Origin: Hymenobacter sp. BT188
GTDB taxonomy: Bacteria > Bacteroidota > Bacteroidia > Cytophagales > Hymenobacteraceae
Direction of reading: 5' to 3'
NCBI RefSeq assembly: GCF_014333585.1
Contig: NZ_JACSCW010000003.1
Coordinates: 558,001-622,000 of the forward strand
DNA length: 64,000 nt
Under the pieces are notes generated by a model that searched no databases, had not been told where the DNA came from, and worked only from the letters and a program-made list of their open reading frames with translations. Shown in pieces: positions 40,602 through 50,015 of the stretch. Positions within the stretch are counted from its first letter, which is position 1. Each line of letters starts with the position of its first letter. The position numbers and the translations under genes were made by a program.

Positions 40602-42437
40602 TTACGACAACTCGAACTGTAGCTTTAACAAATTAGCATACAGCCCATTTTCGCTGTTTGAGAGCTCCTCGTGCCGGCCTTGCTCCACAATGCGGCCACC
40701 GTCGATAACCAGAATCTTATCGACTTTGCGGATGGTACTAAGGCGGTGAGCAATGATAATACTGGTGCGATCTTTCATCAGCTCATCCATCGCATCCTGC
40801 ACCAGCTTTTCCGACTCCGAATCGAGGGAAGAAGTGGCTTCGTCGAGGATGAGAATGGCGGGATTTTTCAGGATGGCACGGGCAATAGCTACGCGCTGAC
40901 GCTGCCCGCCTGAGAGCTTAATGCCCCGCTCGCCCACCACGGTATCCAAGCCTTCGGGGAAGGAAGAGATGAACTGCCAAGCGTTGGCCTTACGAGCAGC
41001 TTCCGTGATTTCGGCGTCGGTGGCGTCAGTTTTGCCGTAGGCGATATTCTCGCGAATAGAGCCGCCGAAAAGCAAAGTTTCCTGGGGTACAATGCCAATG
41101 TGGCTTCGCAGTTCCGTGAGGTCAAACAGGCGCACGTCGCGGCCATCGATCAGGATTTTGCCCGCGCTCAACTCATAAAACTGCATCAGCAGCTGTACGA
41201 TAGTGCTTTTACCCGCGCCGCTAGGACCCACCAAGGCAATCTTTTCGCCGGCCTGGATATCAAAGCTGATATCCTTGAGCACCGGAAGATCGGGGCGGGT
41301 GGGGTAGCTGAACGCCACGTTTTGATAATCGATATCGCCGCGCACCTGCAAAGGAGCGATACCGGCCATGCGGGGGCGGTGCGTCGGTTCCGATGGCTCG
41401 TCGAGGATTTCGAGGATTCGCTCTGAGGCACCCAGCGTCGTTTGAACTTTGCCATAAAGCTCACCCAGGCCACCTACCGAAGCGCCAATAAAGATGGTGT
41501 AAAGCGCGAATGATGTCAAGTCACCAATGGTCATCTGACCCGCAGCTACCAGCGTAGCCGCGCGCCACAGCACCAGAATAATGCCCCCGAACAGCCCAAC
41601 AATCACGAACGACACAAACCCTCCACGGTAGCGGTTACTGCGCAAAGCGGCTCTGACGGTATTGGTGAGCGACGCTGTATAGCGGTTGGTTTCGAACTGC
41701 TCATTGGTAAACGCCTTCACCGTATTAATTCCCTGAAGGGTTTCCTCTACAATGACGTTGGTCTTGGCCAGCTCATCCTGTGTTGCCTTGGCCAATACCC
41801 GTATCTTGCGCCCGAAAAACATGGCTAACAGCACAATAGGTGGAAACGTCGCCAGCATAAACAGCGACAGTTTCACCGATACCATCATGATAAAAACGGT
41901 GCCCACAACCAGCGTCGTGATTTGGCGAAAAAGCTCAGCCAGCGTAAGTGAGAAGGTGTCCTGAATCTGGCCCACATCAGAAGTGATTCGCGAGGTGATG
42001 GCGCCGACGCGGTTTTTCTCGAAGTAGGGAATGGGCAGCGTTACAAACTTCCGATACAGGGCCTGCCGAATATCGCGCACCGTAAACTCACTTACCTGCG
42101 TGAAAAACCAAATCCGCCCAAAGGAGAAGATGCCCTGAAACAGAATGATCACAAACAGGCCCACCGCGATAGTATCAATGGTAAGCGCGTCGCCATTCGG
42201 CATTACAAACGGTCTTCCATTGGCCGCATCGGTTAGTTTGCCAATAACCCAGGGAAAGGCCATCACCGTGGCGCTGGACAAAGCCAGTAATACCATCCCC
42301 ACGATGAATTTGGTGCGGTAGGGCAGCACATAGCGGAAAATCCGCAAACCTTGTTTGAAGCTTTCCTTGGTTAATTTCTTCTTGGGCACATCCGGATCAA
42401 GGGTCGTGCCGCTGGTGTTCATTCCACTTCTGGCCAT
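40602..42437 (-). CDS. MsbA-type ABC exporter (fused membrane and ATPase domains)
   Basis: The 611-residue half-transporter has six membrane helices (about 40-330) and a complete ATPase: Walker A GPSGAGKS near 404, Q-loop VPQETLLF, signature LSGGQRQR near 506, Walker B ILILDEATSSLDSES and H-loop AHRLSTI. This layout exports lipids, drugs or peptides as a homodimer. The extended N-terminus (GMNTSGTTLDPDVPKKKLTKESFKQGLRIFRYVLPY) is typical of Bacteroidota members. It stands alone in its direction, with gaps of 117 bases or more on each side. The substrate is unknown. Confidence 0.93.
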   Translation of the reverse strand: MARSGMNTSGTTLDPDVPKKKLTKESFKQGLRIFRYVLPYRTKFIVGMVLLALSSATVMAFPWVIGKLTDAANGRPFVMPNGDALTIDTIAVGLFVIILFQGIFSFGRIWFFTQVSEFTVRDIRQALYRKFVTLPIPYFEKNRVGAITSRITSDVGQIQDTFSLTLAELFRQITTLVVGTVFIMMVSVKLSLFMLATFPPIVLLAMFFGRKIRVLAKATQDELAKTNVIVEETLQGINTVKAFTNEQFETNRYTASLTNTVRAALRSNRYRGGFVSFVIVGLFGGIILVLWRAATLVAAGQMTIGDLTSFALYTIFIGASVGGLGELYGKVQTTLGASERILEILDEPSEPTHRPRMAGIAPLQVRGDIDYQNVAFSYPTRPDLPVLKDISFDIQAGEKIALVGPSGAGKSTIVQLLMQFYELSAGKILIDGRDVRLFDLTELRSHIGIVPQETLLFGGSIRENIAYGKTDATDAEITEAARKANAWQFISSFPEGLDTVVGERGIKLSGGQRQRVAIARAILKNPAILILDEATSSLDSESEKLVQDAMDELMKDRTSIIIAHRLSTIRKVDKILVIDGGRIVEQGRHEELSNSENGLYANLLKLQFELS

Positions 42438-44761: not shown

Positions 44762-46297
44762 TTACTCCAGGCCTGTCAGGCGGGTACCGGCATAGTAATA
44801 TAGCTCGGCCAACGATTTTTCATAGTTAGCCCGCATACTTTCCTGCTTGATGCGCAGGTCAATTAGCTTGGTTTCTCGGCTGTTAATGAGGAAGATAGTG
44901 CTTTCGCCCAAGTCGTACTTTTCCAGCTCAGCCTGTAGCAGGGTGCGCTGATTGGCGATAGTGAGCGCCTGAACCGTGAGTTGACGTTCGTAGGCCCTAA
45001 GCGTGTTGTAGGCAGCCGTAAGTTGGTTGAGAATAGTGCGCTGGCTTTGCTGCTGTTCCAGCACCGTCTCTTGTACCTGAAAGCGAACCTGCTGAAGCTG
45101 GCCGCGCTGCTGCCGTAGGAACAGCGGAAACGCGAAGTCTACTCCCAGCTTATAATTATTGCGGCCAAAATCGTACGTGGGGGGCAATTCTGTGCGGTAA
45201 AAGTCGCCTTGGCTTAGCAGCGTGCCACTCACATTGATGCGGGGTTTCAGCAACTCGCGCCGATAGCGTTCCTCTATACCCAGCTGCCGGATTTCGGCCC
45301 CCAAACGGATCAGCGTTGGATGCTGCTTTGCCGCCTGATCAGTGAGCCGGCTAAACTCCTGAGCGCTTACCCCGTCGCGGCGAGCGGGCTGGGGCACAGC
45401 GCGTTCGGGAAGCTCCACGGGCTGCGCATTCTGGTTCCAGAGATGGTTGGAGAGCACAAGACGGGCGTTTTGCAGTTCCAGCTGCAACCGTTCGGCCTCT
45501 ACAAGCCGGTCCTGAGCAATAATGCGGGCCTCCACGGAATCAATAGGAGCCTCGTCGCCCAAGTCTACTTTGCGGCTAATGGCTAGGAAACGAGTTTCAG
45601 CCAAATCCAGGCCCTCTTGAATAAGCGCAGCCTGCTGATAAGCATAGTACCAGCTCCAGTAATCTTTGGCTACTTGGAGCCACACTTCGTTGATTTTCTT
45701 TACGCGGTCGGCCTCGGCGGCCGTCACCAAGATGCGTGCCTGCCGCAAAGTGCTGCGTCGGGCATCAATCAATAATCCTTGTCCTAATGGTACCGACAAA
45801 CCAACTCCCGCCAGCCCCGCTACCGGAGTCTTCGTTTCGGGGTTGACGTACGTGCCTACGTACCGGTCGTAGCCGGCTGTCAGGTCGATGCCGCCGGGCC
45901 ACAGTGGCACCGTGAGCTCGTTAGCCCACTTATTATAATATTCAGTGCCGCCAAATACTTTGCGATTGAAGCCTGCGCCCAGTTGCGGATCGAAGCCCCC
46001 GCGAGCTTCCAGTACTTCTGCCTGCGCCTTAGCGCTCAGGAGCGCCGCCTGCTTCACAATGGGATGATGCGCAAATACTATTTCGGCTAAGTCCTGAAGC
46101 GAAAATACTTGCGCAGTATCAACGAGTTGCGGCTCAGCTAGCAGTTTGCTTTGGCTTGGGAGTGGCTGTGAGACTGGCAACTGCTGAGCCACCGCTTGCA
46201 CGATAATAGTGGGCCACGCTACGATGAGCACAATCAGGAACCGAAAAAAGCCCCCCAGCAAGCCAAATAATCGGTTCGAACAGATGAAAGACCTCAT
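44762..46297 (-). CDS. TolC-family outer-membrane protein
   Basis: The 511-residue product has a hydrophobic signal segment (FGLLGGFFRFLIVLIVAWPTIIVQAVAQ) and two TolC repeats with long Gln/Leu-rich helices (QQSQRTILNQLTAAYNTLRAYERQLTVQALTIANQRTLLQAELEKYDLGESTIFLINSRE). It overlaps the HlyD gene by 4 bases (ATGA), so it is the last gene of an exporter operon. The LLGGFF of the signal segment is encoded by a motif copy at 46244-46258. It differs from the RND-operon TolC. Confidence 0.88.
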   Translation of the reverse strand: MRSFICSNRLFGLLGGFFRFLIVLIVAWPTIIVQAVAQQLPVSQPLPSQSKLLAEPQLVDTAQVFSLQDLAEIVFAHHPIVKQAALLSAKAQAEVLEARGGFDPQLGAGFNRKVFGGTEYYNKWANELTVPLWPGGIDLTAGYDRYVGTYVNPETKTPVAGLAGVGLSVPLGQGLLIDARRSTLRQARILVTAAEADRVKKINEVWLQVAKDYWSWYYAYQQAALIQEGLDLAETRFLAISRKVDLGDEAPIDSVEARIIAQDRLVEAERLQLELQNARLVLSNHLWNQNAQPVELPERAVPQPARRDGVSAQEFSRLTDQAAKQHPTLIRLGAEIRQLGIEERYRRELLKPRINVSGTLLSQGDFYRTELPPTYDFGRNNYKLGVDFAFPLFLRQQRGQLQQVRFQVQETVLEQQQSQRTILNQLTAAYNTLRAYERQLTVQALTIANQRTLLQAELEKYDLGESTIFLINSRETKLIDLRIKQESMRANYEKSLAELYYYAGTRLTGLE

Positions 46298-47682
46298 GAC
46301 GAACTTACCATTTCGTCGGGTGGTCCCTGAGTAGGTGTAATGTTTTTTGGCTCAGCTTGCAGGCTGGGAGGAAACCCATTGAGCTGCCGCCAGATTTCGT
46401 ACCATACCGGCACCGAATCCAGAATTACCCAACCGTATACGCCTGACCCAATTCGCAGCTGCTGGGGCCAAGCGTGGTCTTTTTGGCGCGTTCGGGAGGG
46501 GCGAATGAGGAGCCGGTAACGGCCATCGGTATTGCTGACTACGTCGATTACTGCTACTTCGCCCCCAAACGTGCCAACTGCCACGGAGGGCCAGCCCGAA
46601 AATTGAATAGCGGGCCAACCATCGAACTGTATCCTGGTTTGCCGGCCCCGCTGAATGAGCGGTACATCCATGGCCCGCACGTACAACTCAGCCGCTAGCA
46701 CAGGAGCTTCAGGCTGGAGAGTAGCAATAGATTCTCCCTGCTTGATGGTTTCGCCGATGCCAGCTTTGAGCGTACGCACAACATAGCCGGTTTGGGGAGC
46801 ACGCACGATGTAGAGCCCGCGTCGCACTTCCACATTGCTGATGCGGTTGCGCAAGGCCGCCACTTCGCCCTCCGAGCTAGCCCGGCTAGACACGGCCGAG
46901 CTTCGGTCGGACTGCGTCTTGGCTAATGTTTCCTGGTACTTCGCTCGAATTTCCGCCAGCTCGATGCGGGCATTGCTGAACGATTGGCGGGTATTCAGCA
47001 GCTTGTTGCGCTGGGCTACCACTTTGGCCAAATCCTCTTGAAGCTTCAAGCGCCGCGTCTCAATATCAGTGAGAGAAAATAGGCCATTCTTAAACCCTTC
47101 TTCGTAGCGTGCCAGCCGATTTTGGGCAATCTGGTAGAAGTTGGTGACAGCTACCAAATCGGCGCTGTCGATGGTAACGGTGTTCCGGGCCTGCTGTACC
47201 CGGTTTCCAGCGGCGGCTAGCTGCACCGTCAAGCCGGTTTGGAGAGCTTCGATTTGCTGGTTAGAGGCAGCAATCTGGGCGGCACTGGCGGCCACATTGC
47301 CGCGCTTGGCGGCCAGCTGCTCGCGTAGGCGCTCTGGTAGGTTAGGATCGAAGTATTCGTCCTGAATTTCGGAGATTGTCAACAACGTATCCCCCTTGTT
47401 TACAAGCTCCCCTTCGCGCACGGCCCAGCGCTCAATACGGCCCGCAATGGCATTCTGTACCGCTTGGGGGCGGTCTTGGGGTGTGAGGGCGGTGAGGCGG
47501 CCGGTACCCTGAATGGTCTGGCGCCAGGGCAGAAACAGGACAATTACAAAAGCAATACCGATCACGAGTAAGACGTGGCCCAAGCGGCGCCCACTCTTAG
47601 GGTCGAGCAGCTCCTGCCGAGTAGTAAGGGAAAACTCTTCCCACGCCTTCCGGGAGATATTCTGTTTGGATACATTAAGCAT
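46294..47682 (-). CDS. HlyD-family secretion adaptor
   Basis: The 462-residue adaptor has one N-terminal membrane helix (RLGHVLLVIGIAFVIVLFLPW), a biotinyl-lipoyl half (AIAGRIERWAVREGELVNKGDTLLTI), a long coiled coil (about 110-290) and the second half (IVRAPQTGYVVRTLKAGIGETIKQGESIATLQP), then a beta-barrel domain. This is the layout of type I secretion HlyD proteins. It overlaps both its upstream ABC-type gene (8 bases) and downstream TolC gene (4 bases), showing one transcript. Confidence 0.92.
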   Translation of the reverse strand: MLNVSKQNISRKAWEEFSLTTRQELLDPKSGRRLGHVLLVIGIAFVIVLFLPWRQTIQGTGRLTALTPQDRPQAVQNAIAGRIERWAVREGELVNKGDTLLTISEIQDEYFDPNLPERLREQLAAKRGNVAASAAQIAASNQQIEALQTGLTVQLAAAGNRVQQARNTVTIDSADLVAVTNFYQIAQNRLARYEEGFKNGLFSLTDIETRRLKLQEDLAKVVAQRNKLLNTRQSFSNARIELAEIRAKYQETLAKTQSDRSSAVSSRASSEGEVAALRNRISNVEVRRGLYIVRAPQTGYVVRTLKAGIGETIKQGESIATLQPEAPVLAAELYVRAMDVPLIQRGRQTRIQFDGWPAIQFSGWPSVAVGTFGGEVAVIDVVSNTDGRYRLLIRPSRTRQKDHAWPQQLRIGSGVYGWVILDSVPVWYEIWRQLNGFPPSLQAEPKNITPTQGPPDEMVSSS

Positions 47683-48691
47683 GCGTTTCCGTCGTAGCGT
47701 TGTCGAGTAAGGGTAAATCGGTTACGCCCGCAAGCTTTTCCACGCCAGTCAGCATGTCGAAGATGGTACCGATACTGGTGACCAGCTTCTCAATAGCATT
47801 GCTGACTTGCACAATGATGACCTCAGCGGCTACAAACTGCCCCAGACTCATTTGCCGCGACACCACGAACAGCGTGCCGGCGATGAGCAACCCTCCAATG
47901 AGGATAGTGCGTAGGAAAATCGCGTAGCCGAAATAGTATTTCAGCACCTTGAAATGGCCGTTGCGGGAGCGCAGATACTCGGCAGTCAGCTCGTCGGTGC
48001 GCATAATGGCCGCTCGTTGCTGCTCCTTATTATGGCGAAACTCCGGCAGCCGGCTAGCTACCTGTTCCAGCCAATCGACCACTTCGTATTTATGAGCCGA
48101 TTCCTGAATGCTCGTGCGCAGTGCCCGCCGGTAGTGCATAACGTAAATCAGCACAAGCATCAGGATGGTGAACAGTCCAAAGGCAATAAAAATGGGGTGG
48201 TAAAAAGACAGAACGAGCAGCCCGAAGACTATCTGGAAGGCGCCAAATATTAGGTCGATCAGCAGCTTACTTAGTCCTTTTTGAACCGTCAGAATGTCGA
48301 AAAAGCGATTGACAAGTTCTGGTGGGTTTTGACCATTCAAGGACTCGGGCTGAATGCGTGGCAGGCGATACGCAAACTCCAGGGCTGCCTTGGCAAATAA
48401 GCGCTGCTCAATGGCTTCCACCATTGTCATCTGGCCAATTAACAGGATACCGCCCAGCAGTAAGCCTAGCACAACCACGCCAATCAGAATGTACGTGGAG
48501 CCAAAGATGGCGCCCGTCGAGACGAGGTTGAAAACGGCCTGGGTTCCGAGCGGCAGCGTAAGGCTAATCAGGCCAGTGATGATGGCATAAATAAGAATAA
48601 AGCGAATAGTCTTACGTTCAGAATCCAGCATGCCGGTCAGGCGCTGCCAAGGTGTAGGGGGAGGGGCTAAGCTGGGGGAACGTGACGCCAT
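47675..48691 (-). CDS. ABC exporter membrane domain without ATPase domain
   Basis: The 338-residue product is an ABC type 1 transmembrane domain: FILIYAIITGLISLTLPLGTQAVFNLVSTG, ILLIGQMTMVEAIEQRLFAKAALEFAYRLPRI, and IFLRTILIGGLLIAGTLFVVSRQMSLGQFVAAEVIIVQVSNAIEKLVTSIGTIFDMLTGVEKL. Full exporters of this type continue into an ATPase domain of about 230 residues; this one stops at the linker (LLDNATTETHA). The stop overlaps the HlyD start in another frame and no Walker or LSGGQ sequence follows, so it is not a simple frameshift. The ATPase must be supplied elsewhere, or the protein works without one. Operon order is this gene, HlyD, TolC. Confidence 0.85.
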   Translation of the reverse strand: MASRSPSLAPPPTPWQRLTGMLDSERKTIRFILIYAIITGLISLTLPLGTQAVFNLVSTGAIFGSTYILIGVVVLGLLLGGILLIGQMTMVEAIEQRLFAKAALEFAYRLPRIQPESLNGQNPPELVNRFFDILTVQKGLSKLLIDLIFGAFQIVFGLLVLSFYHPIFIAFGLFTILMLVLIYVMHYRRALRTSIQESAHKYEVVDWLEQVASRLPEFRHNKEQQRAAIMRTDELTAEYLRSRNGHFKVLKYYFGYAIFLRTILIGGLLIAGTLFVVSRQMSLGQFVAAEVIIVQVSNAIEKLVTSIGTIFDMLTGVEKLAGVTDLPLLDNATTETHA

Positions 48692-48877
48692 GTACTGGAA
48701 GAGTGAAAAAGATCGGGCCGGTGAGATGAACGCAGTCCGCGAAAAACCGCATTCTGGCCACGATATAGTGGGTCGTGCCCTACTGACGCACTCAACTCAC
48801 TAGGCCGTAGCTGGTGCGCGTTAGCTCCACACAACAGTCACTCAGTCGTATCTGTTTTCGCCGCTTGTCCAGATCTG

Positions 48878-49891
48878 CTATTCCCAGTCCTGCCAGCGCA
48901 TAATTTCACCTACGGCCGGGGCATGCAACTCGCCACGCAGCATTTGGCCGTTGGCTACTTCTTGGAGGGTGCGTAGGGGCTCAGAGGCAGGCTCATCGGA
49001 GAGGTCGAAGGTGCCATGGTGCATAGGAACAACGTGGCCGGCGCGCAGAATATTGGCGGCTTTTGCGGCCTCGTGCGGGTCCATGTGGCTGAGCTGCATC
49101 ATAAAGGATGGCTTATAGGCCCCGATAGGCATTATGCAGACATCAAGGGGGCCAAATTGCTTCTCTATTTCCTCAAAATGCCCTCCGAAGCCACTGTCGC
49201 CGCAGAAGTAGAGCAGCCTGTCTGCCACGCGCAGCATAAAGCTGCCCCAAAGTATGTGGTTCATATCTGTAAGGCCGCGGCGGTGCCAATGTGAGGCGGG
49301 CAAGTAGGTAATCTCTAGCCCAGAATTGCCCCCCAGATTATATTGCTGCCACCAACCCGCTTCCTGCACTGACACGTTAGGAGCCATGCCGCGCAGCAGT
49401 TTGGTCATATTAAGTGGAGCCAGAACCTGCATGTCGGGATTTTGCCGGGCTATTGTCTTGATAGAAGCTTGGTCGAGGTGGTCACGGTGACCGTGAGAGA
49501 GCAACAAGTAATCGATGCCGGTGATATCCTCGGGGCGACAAGGCAGCGCATGCCGATGCCGCAGTCCTAAAGAAGAGTACAACACGGGGTCGAACAGCAG
49601 CGTGACGCCCGCCACCCGCCACAGAAACGTAGCGTGGCCCAACCACACCAGCATGTCTTCAGTCGAGGTGAAAGCATCGGCGCAATCCACCACAGCCGGC
49701 ACCCAACTATCTGCTTTCTTCTCAGCTTTCTGTGGGTTTTCGGTTAGCTGCCAGCGGATTACGTTGCTGAATTTGGGTTCGTACAGCACTTCGCCGTTGC
49801 AGAATTCACTGCCAATCATCTTGTTGCCAGGATAATTGGGGCGAATGGTTTTCAGATTCTCGTTGCGACGATACGTAGTGCGAGCGGCCAT
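48878..49891 (-). CDS. Metallo-beta-lactamase-fold hydrolase (NAPE-PLD-like)
   Basis: The 337-residue product has the MBL metal site SHGHRDHLD (His133, His135, Asp137, His138), a third ligand region SHWHRRG, GDSGFGGHFEEIEKQFG and a C-terminal MHHGTFDLSDEP. Together with VWLGHATFLWRVAGVTLLFDPVL this pattern matches the NAPE-PLD and UlaG-like lineage. It has no signal peptide from the ATG at 49891; an in-frame TTG at 49936 would extend it. A phosphodiesterase role is inferred. A motif copy at 49324-49335 is translated as NLGGNSG. Confidence 0.88.
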   Translation of the reverse strand: MAARTTYRRNENLKTIRPNYPGNKMIGSEFCNGEVLYEPKFSNVIRWQLTENPQKAEKKADSWVPAVVDCADAFTSTEDMLVWLGHATFLWRVAGVTLLFDPVLYSSLGLRHRHALPCRPEDITGIDYLLLSHGHRDHLDQASIKTIARQNPDMQVLAPLNMTKLLRGMAPNVSVQEAGWWQQYNLGGNSGLEITYLPASHWHRRGLTDMNHILWGSFMLRVADRLLYFCGDSGFGGHFEEIEKQFGPLDVCIMPIGAYKPSFMMQLSHMDPHEAAKAANILRAGHVVPMHHGTFDLSDEPASEPLRTLQEVANGQMLRGELHAPAVGEIMRWQDWE

Positions 49892-49952
49892 AAAAAGGCG
49901 AAATAGAAGTTGGAAGCGAGGTGGAAAGGTAAACAAACAACCCGTTCAGAAA

Positions 49953-49997
49953 AGCTAAAAAAGCCCCCCAACCGTGGCTGGGGGGCTTTTTTAGCTT
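49953..49997 (-). terminator. Terminator of the beta-barrel gene, from inverted motif copies
   Basis: AGCTAAAAAAGCCCCCCA and its complement pair around a short loop, 19 bases past the beta-barrel stop. Confidence 0.9.
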
Positions 49998-50015
49998 TCT
50001 AAATAGTGCCAAGGG

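Follow-up and report, generated by a model that had tools for sequence, protein, structure and literature searches.

How can a type I-like export operon work when its ABC subunit carries no ATPase domain? The question is raised by a 64,000-nt stretch of DNA from Hymenobacter sp. BT188 (contig NZ_JACSCW010000003.1, positions 558,001 to 622,000; hereafter the window), in which three overlapping minus-strand genes encode the membrane domain of an ATP-binding cassette (ABC) exporter without its nucleotide-binding domain (NBD), a HlyD-type adaptor and a TolC-type outer membrane factor. The answer to which we give about an even chance (roughly 0.5), judging from sequence comparison, is that the operon encodes a tripartite exporter that was ancestrally an ABC-powered, type I-like system and would now run without ATP at its own subunit, driven by an ion or substrate gradient. 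The operon comprises the following features, with open reading frame abbreviated as ORF, transmembrane as TM and AlphaFold2 as AF2:

47675..48691, minus strand: ABC-exporter membrane domain without NBD, 338 aa, six TM helices, ending at the linker after TM6 (ORF call, Pfam, AF2, HlyB structure match)
46294..47682, minus strand: HlyD-type periplasmic adaptor, 462 aa (Pfam, model, Foldseek)
44762..46297, minus strand: TolC-type outer membrane factor, 511 aa (PF02321 OEP, 133.6 bits)
47675..47682, minus strand: 8-bp overlap of the ABC stop with the hlyD start (ORF coordinates)
46294..46297, minus strand: 4-bp overlap of the hlyD stop with the tolC start (ORF coordinates)

This gene order, with overlaps of 8 and 4 bases, had been given in the initial annotation, and we found the same ORF coordinates. 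In Pfam scans, the 338-aa protein matches PF00664 ABC_membrane with 31.8 bits (cutoff 28) and PF00005 not at all, and HlyD_3 and related families match the adaptor. With a HlyD-family adaptor and a TolC-family factor encoded beside the ABC gene, the operon is indeed type I-like, as had been proposed. The NBD and competent ATPase motifs are missing, and because the ATPase is a defining part of type I secretion, we do not call the operon a type I secretion system; the available text of PMC11026475 describes HlyB as secreting by ATP hydrolysis.

An unfiltered search of the six frames of the window (segments of at least 25 aa) with a profile of the family's own NBD found only an ordinary exporter at 40602-42437 (152.6 bits), everything else scoring at most 6.5 bits, and neither G....GK[ST] nor [LIVMF]SGG[QEM] occurs in the three minus-strand frames of 44762-50000. 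The earlier claim that the protein ends at the linker and that no ATPase motif follows it in any frame is confirmed. The next gene upstream stops at 48878, 186 bp from the ABC start, a gap too short for an NBD, and a protein of only 338 aa leaves no room for an N-terminal domain. A split gene or an overlooked NBD is rejected on the basis of the scan of the window together with a family-NBD scan of 16 genomes, given below.

Genes of this kind recur well beyond the window. The 120 same-genus genomes gave 110 matches in 107 genomes, 49 of them NBD-less (68-100% identity, open frame of 337-487 aa) and 61 full-length (43-50% identity, frame of at least 538 aa); proteins were read for 34 of the 49 and 11 of the 61, along with those on named Hymenobacter contigs, and the others were classed by open frame only. 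Counted by genome, 46 have the NBD-less form only, 58 the full-length form only, 3 both (G000, G087 and G130) and 13 neither, meaning no match at E ≤ 1e-20. This mutual avoidance (Fisher p = 1.4e-17, uncorrected for kinship) is as for interchangeable versions of one function, which the split resembles. In a phylum sample of 395 genomes, 97 had a match at E ≤ 1e-30 and 7 an NBD-less frame, 5 of these outside the genus; from the 99 phylum matches, G237, G268, G367, G413, G418, G459, G468 and G519 were left out (206-306 bits, scores like those of the outgroup). Of 563 relatives on named genome contigs, the best 80 comprise 53 full-length and 27 NBD-less proteins (L085-L111), the latter hosted by Hymenobacter, Pedobacter, Mucilaginibacter, Spirosoma, Larkinella, Sphingobacterium and one metagenome-assembled genome each of Hymenobacteraceae and Sphingobacteriaceae.

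After removal of 11 duplicate loci and the weak match L030 (25.5 bits), a working set of 212 sequences remained. Its 152 full-length members continue for 227-285 aa beyond the conserved linker, VTDLPL, and its 60 distinct NBD-less proteins all end 6-12 aa past it. The gene is intact, in agreement with the earlier reading, and neither a frameshift nor a recent deletion accounts for its shortness. The exact 8-nt overlap with hlyD recurs in 45 of the 60 NBD-less loci, against 2 of the 132 full-length loci whose NBDs appear dead (hereafter dead-NBD loci), where the start rule used found no hlyD start in 53; the remaining NBD-less loci show an 11-nt overlap (3), a gap (7) or no start by that rule (5). 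Nine of 11 NBD-less pairs, all of them Hymenobacter-type or Pedobacter-type loci, gave dN/dS values of 0.010-0.131, dS being saturated in the other two, and by these ratios the genes of both types are under purifying selection. An assembly artefact or a decaying pseudogene, for which nothing but the missing domain speaks, is thus refuted by conservation in 49 of 120 same-genus genomes and in further genera of other families, and the uniform protein end, the recurrent overlap and the dN/dS values likewise leave it a negligible chance.

How the domain was lost can be followed in the relatives that still carry it. In a tree of 89 membrane-domain rows (21 NBD-less, 53 full-length and 15 outgroup, the root being an outgroup picked by score and motifs), the NBD-less proteins group as a single clade (100/100) inside a 74-row clade (100/100) that also holds all 53 full-length rows, among which they are nested. 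On this gene tree, deletion of the NBD is a single event, after which the shortened protein was apparently retained in many species. The initial annotation had considered that orthologues might carry the ATPase and that this genome might have a deletion at the junction; the relatives do carry an NBD, and it was deleted, but the loss is single and its product widely retained, which leaves that account half right.

The NBDs of the full-length relatives look ATPase-dead by their motifs. The second signature glycine survives in 4 of the family's 132 full-length NBDs, the Walker B catalytic Glu in 7 and the switch His in 2; none of these three marks is retained in 119, one in 13, and more in none. 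All three are present in 14 of 20 outgroup NBDs (L205-L224), two in 3, one in 2 and none in 1, with the Walker B Glu in 19/20 and the switch His in 15/20. As controls we used 20 ordinary exporters from the same genomes, a non-random set taken from the best matches of the dead-NBD profile: 9 have all three marks, 10 have two and 1 has one, the second signature glycine occurring in 19/20 and the switch His in 20/20, and the Glu position holding Glu in 9, Asp in 10 and a gap in 1. The rows with Asp are presumably degenerate halves of heterodimeric exporters. The motif alignment retains two rows that are off-register at the motifs, one control row and the family row L174. In-family NBDs keep the Walker A Lys in 130/132 and the following Ser/Thr in 116/132, the latter being gone in all five full-length proteins that lie nearest to the NBD-less clade (L013, L121, L127, L020 and L116). 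Since the catalytic motifs are gone in relatives that still carry the NBD, coupling to the protein's own ATPase was probably lost before the domain itself, and the deletion seems to have removed an already dead ATPase. The simplest order of events is that the catalytic motifs were lost, Walker A was then damaged in some lines, and the NBD was deleted in one.

The window's own genome (G000) carries both forms. A second, full-length operon copy at G000:C14:73228-74181 (L001 3477-9011), with HlyD, TolC and an upstream TetR gene, adjoins apparent nuo genes (by eye); its NBD is degenerate, with ADNV as the signature, DH at Walker B and no switch His. Such co-occurrence would allow a heterodimer of the NBD-less protein with its full-length paralogue. 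The paralogue's NBD is itself degenerate, and a full-length relative (E ≤ 1e-20) is found in only 3 of the 49 same-genus genomes with an NBD-less gene, which makes this pairing highly improbable.

What remains of the ABC protein is predicted to be a complete HlyB-like half-exporter. Its AF2 model (pLDDT 92.1, pTM 0.85) shows six long helices, with a short helix at each of the two coupling-helix sites, and PCAT1, HlyB and TmrAB emerged as its structural neighbours (Foldseek and VIA-align). Superposition on HlyB gave a TMq of 0.85, Z of 27.4 and rmsd of 5.0 over 329 residues, and that on TmrAB a tied Z of 28.2 with rmsd 2.8 over 323. Of the parts that define an ABC exporter, the model thus contains the six-TM domain with two coupling helices, and the NBD is absent. 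The following features of the membrane domain were compared between the groups:

48326..48364, minus strand: coupling helix 1 region, residues 110-122 (AF2 model, alignment)
48254..48256, minus strand: Asp146 codon, TM3, an acid conserved in the NBD-less, dead-NBD and outgroup proteins (alignment)
48026..48064, minus strand: coupling helix 2 region, residues 210-222 (AF2 model, alignment)
47822..47824, minus strand: Glu290 codon, TM6, in GQFVAAE, 95-100% Glu in all three groups (alignment)
47708..47761, minus strand: residues 311-328, the TM6 extension with the linker, which stay conserved even with no NBD after them (alignment)

The six-helix core including TM6 remains conserved in NBD-less proteins. 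Conservation of coupling helix 2, relative to the average of the respective protein, falls to 0.66-0.70 in NBD-less proteins, against 0.86-1.04 in the full-length groups and the outgroup. At position 213, a near-invariant Arg in dead-NBD proteins, column identity is 0.91 (dead-NBD), 0.81 (outgroup) and 0.24 (NBD-less); the corresponding values at position 218, which is invariant inside the Sphingobacteriaceae NBD-less set, are 0.98, 0.57 and 0.28. Ranked as a whole segment in the Hymenobacter NBD-less set, coupling helix 2 comes 8th of 303 against same-genus full-length proteins, 16th against the Flavobacteriaceae type, 36th of 303 against all full-length proteins and 11th against the outgroup. 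No relaxation of coupling helix 1 or of linker 311-328 was seen in NBD-less proteins.

These patterns bear on powering in trans, in which the ATPase would be contributed by a free-standing NBD or a different ABC half-transporter docked to the membrane domain. The relaxed coupling helix 2 speaks against such docking, for which the unrelaxed coupling helix 1 and linker leave room. NBDs as such are at hand, with at least 15 matches at E ≤ 1e-12 in every one of the 16 scanned genomes (3 with a full-length relative, 13 NBD-less-only). On the family-NBD profile, the family NBDs of the former three scored 282-326 bits, whereas none of the 13 NBD-less-only genomes yielded a family-type NBD: their best matches (152-170 bits) lie within full-length exporters, and in their frames of at most 348 aa the NBD matches, among those listed, reached at most 97 bits. 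Within the window, an ordinary full-length ABC exporter (40602-42437; PF00664 188 bits, PF00005 125 bits) shares the strand of tolC and lies ~2.3 kb downstream of that gene. We rejected this exporter as a generally conserved partner, because an exporter NBD ~6 kb from the NBD-less gene was found in only 4 of 9 same-genus NBD-less genomes (G000, G009, G013 and G023; positions by eye), and none lies near that gene among the matches listed in G012, G014, G021, G022 and G024. A soluble ABC-type ATPase (cluster 14, ABC-F-like judged from its start) occurs near 2 of the 24 NBD-less loci with enough context for neighbourhood counts. Among the families listed, only the core genes, a leader-like ORF and TetR occur at more than 2 of these 24 loci. 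The relatives' NBDs, moreover, already look dead. The lack of a family-type NBD elsewhere and the relaxed coupling helix 2 together disfavour an ATPase encoded elsewhere; it seems, from the genomes compared, not to have been relocated, and we regard powering in trans as unlikely. Of the two possibilities named in the initial annotation, an ATPase elsewhere or another energy source, the first thus loses ground, and the relatives' NBDs were already without catalytic motifs.

The membrane domain might also transport nothing and serve, as a platform or gate in the inner membrane, to bring HlyD and TolC together into a duct, which would export something from the periplasm or serve another inner-membrane transporter. 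Both partners are retained with it: families around the 24 NBD-less loci are ABC (24), TolC (24), HlyD (23), the leader-like ORF (10, of Pedobacter and Mucilaginibacter type), TetR (4) and two others (2 each, one being the soluble ABC-type ATPase), the single HlyD miss (L091) being due to an antisense ORF taken there by the ORF picker. The FYHP loop between TM3 and TM4 (residues 162-167) is highly conserved, with a relative identity of 1.21 in all NBD-less and 1.39 in all full-length proteins, while coupling helix 2 is relaxed, and the motif decay that seems to precede NBD loss also suits a platform. However, the conserved six-helix core and the modelled complete half-exporter are more than an anchor needs, and no partner transporter gene is conserved near the 24 loci, so that a pure platform appears doubtful to us.

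We return to an exporter that works without ATP at its own subunit. Its ancestor would have been an ABC-powered type I-like system composed of a HlyB-like membrane domain, a HlyD-family adaptor and a TolC-type duct. The family NBD would have lost its signature, Walker B Glu and H-switch, the nearest full-length relatives also losing the Walker A Ser/Thr, until one clade dropped the whole NBD and left the membrane domain overlapping hlyD. The half-exporter would dimerise and sit beneath HlyD and TolC like HlyB, and the dimer may move substrate, or deliver it into the HlyD-TolC duct, while hydrolysing no ATP itself. The ion-motive force or a gradient of the substrate itself would supply the energy, as in MsbA-MD, the NBD-stripped form of MsbA; the MsbA-MD work is said to come from one laboratory line and to be debated. 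According to the accessible text of PMC4979069, MsbA-MD mediates delta-pH-dependent ethidium transport in cells and proteoliposomes, reminiscent of LmrA-MD. We put forward the full version, a natural secondary-active ABC-fold tripartite exporter whose ATPase was first killed and then discarded and which is run by ion-motive force or a substrate gradient, only tentatively.

Several points weigh against this scenario. In the same partial text (PMC4979069), MsbA-MD is less efficient than the wild type, and a full-length MsbA whose NBD was killed by deletion of the Walker A Lys shows no efflux in cells, so that the precedent covers the NBD-less protein and not its dead-NBD relatives. Relaxation of coupling helix 2 is strong at single residues and modest for the segment as a whole, and the conserved linker 311-328 and coupling helix 1 may point to a cytoplasmic docking partner. 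D146 and E290 are candidate ion sites, for which the alignment offers weak evidence. We rejected them as a derived sign of proton coupling: both acids also occur in the outgroup, whose NBDs look more alive, and they lie off the MsbA positions, MsbA E149 aligning with residue 150, one turn from D146, and position 290 not being acidic in E. coli MsbA or in the window's ordinary exporter. They therefore do not indicate that the family turned to ion coupling. Motif decay is not one clean staircase on the tree, where 13 of 68 rows lack the Walker A Ser/Thr, a pattern that takes at least 5 changes, and each of the other motif marks takes 5 to 7. The outgroup NBDs have oddities of their own (Q-loop Gln 0/20, first signature Gly 1/20, D-loop Asp 3/20) and may themselves be unusual ATPases, which leaves the outgroup ATPase uncertain. 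Finally, the likeness of the modelled adaptor to EmrA rests on E-value, its TM-score being low (0.38).

The adaptor itself consists of a helix (28-49), a long two-helix hairpin (115-198/204-289), strand domains and a C-terminal WYEIWRQLNGFPP. It scores 76.7 bits against TIGR01843, under the cutoff of 208.65. For its model (pLDDT 85.1, pTM 0.58), Foldseek ranked EmrA best by E-value (1.2e-20) at that low TMq, with HlyD fragments following from rank 48, and sequence comparison with the PDB gave two weak top matches, the HlyB/D complex adaptor (E 1.1e-4) ahead of EmrA (E 7.6e-4). At the C-terminus of the adaptor family, E-x-WR-x-x-N-x-FP is invariant in 45/45 aligned rows, a stretch uncovered by the best stretch of any Pfam or NCBIfam match listed for the window's adaptor. 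An RLT/RLS motif at the adaptor hairpin tip is associated with TolC docking in the available part of PMC3391258. The tip reads R-x3-L-x6-S in many dead-NBD relatives, and Gly replaces Leu in the window's adaptor and in all four other aligned NBD-less adaptors.

Several known systems have features in common with the operon. It shares the membrane-domain fold and the gene order ABC-HlyD-TolC with the type I ABC proteins (HlyB, the LssB type TIGR03375 and NHLM) and differs in that the window protein has neither NBD nor N-terminal domain and the relatives' NBDs look dead. The best NCBIfam match of three scanned dead-NBD relatives is TIGR03375 (175-200 bits, cutoff 693), and that of the one outgroup protein scanned is TIGR03797, all NCBIfam scores being far under the cutoffs. 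Like MsbA-MD and LmrA-MD, the window protein is an ABC-exporter membrane domain that ends at the linker; these two are laboratory truncations of ATP-driven pumps, whereas it is natural, conserved and part of a tripartite operon. EmrAB-TolC is a tripartite pump that is not powered by ATP. EmrA and EmrAB-TolC give the best E-values for the window's adaptor model in the PDB, but the inner-membrane subunit of EmrAB-TolC belongs to the major facilitator superfamily, in contrast to the ABC-exporter fold here. The acids of MsbA that PMC4979069, in its accessible part, describes as tested do not align with those conserved in the window family. Loci with type I-like parts and no ABC ATPase are known from the SecA_DEAD-associated HlyD/OEP group, for which the available text of Kamneva et al. 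2015 (PMC4452313) reports a SecA_DEAD ATPase and no ABC-transporter homologue found; the window operon has an ABC membrane domain and no ATPase gene conserved nearby. Degenerate catalytic residues also occur in heterodimeric exporters such as TmrAB (PMC8277102; PMC7756269, each in part), which keep one active site, whereas in the window the NBD is absent, its relatives lose at least two of the three marks and no active partner gene is conserved nearby. A survey, as far as its text was available, predicted type I secretion systems in Bacteroidetes from protein profiles (PMC4793230) and there takes no account of whether the NBD is intact. No earlier account of a HlyB-like family that lacks the NBD or has a dead ATPase turned up in the literature searched, whose coverage mostly excludes subscription journals and includes some texts only in part.

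The gene neighbourhood offers few hints as to the substrate. At dead-NBD loci, HlyD was found in 85/87, TolC in 82/87 and TetR (a label denoting likeness to the L001 gene, PF00440) in 59/87, compared with 16/18, 16/18 and 0/18 at outgroup loci; the frequent TetR gene at dead-NBD loci is a hint of a small-molecule substrate. The initial annotation saw no obvious substrate gene adjacent to the operon, and none is conserved beside the 24 NBD-less loci either, the one possible substrate being the leader-like ORF of Sphingobacteriaceae, which the window lacks. This small same-strand ORF (~97-160 aa) ends shortly before the ABC gene at NBD-less (L093-L100, L104, L106 and L109) and full-length loci (L191-L198), with counts of 11/60 NBD-less, 10/130 full-length (8 look real) and 0/19 outgroup. 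Its product carries [TS]PPP[DN] or [LI]PPP[ER] at the C-terminus and, at the N-terminus, a hydrophobic segment that looks export-like by eye; the product of L094 has no notable Pfam or NCBIfam match. It resembles CutF leaders, described in the accessible part of PMC9973294 as exported, proline-ending and regulating downstream translation; alternatively, it could be a small substrate.

The family forms a natural series within one phylum, from a motif-bearing NBD through a dead NBD and Walker A damage to no NBD at all. The dead NBDs still pass the Pfam ABC_tran cutoff, scoring well over it (52.9-84 bits in four scanned), and Bacteroidota operons annotated as ABC or type I secretion may therefore not hydrolyse ATP. 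To our knowledge, ATP-independent function of ABC-exporter membrane domains has so far rested on laboratory truncations, MsbA-MD and LmrA-MD. The native proteins described here make the ATP-independence of ABC membrane domains directly testable.

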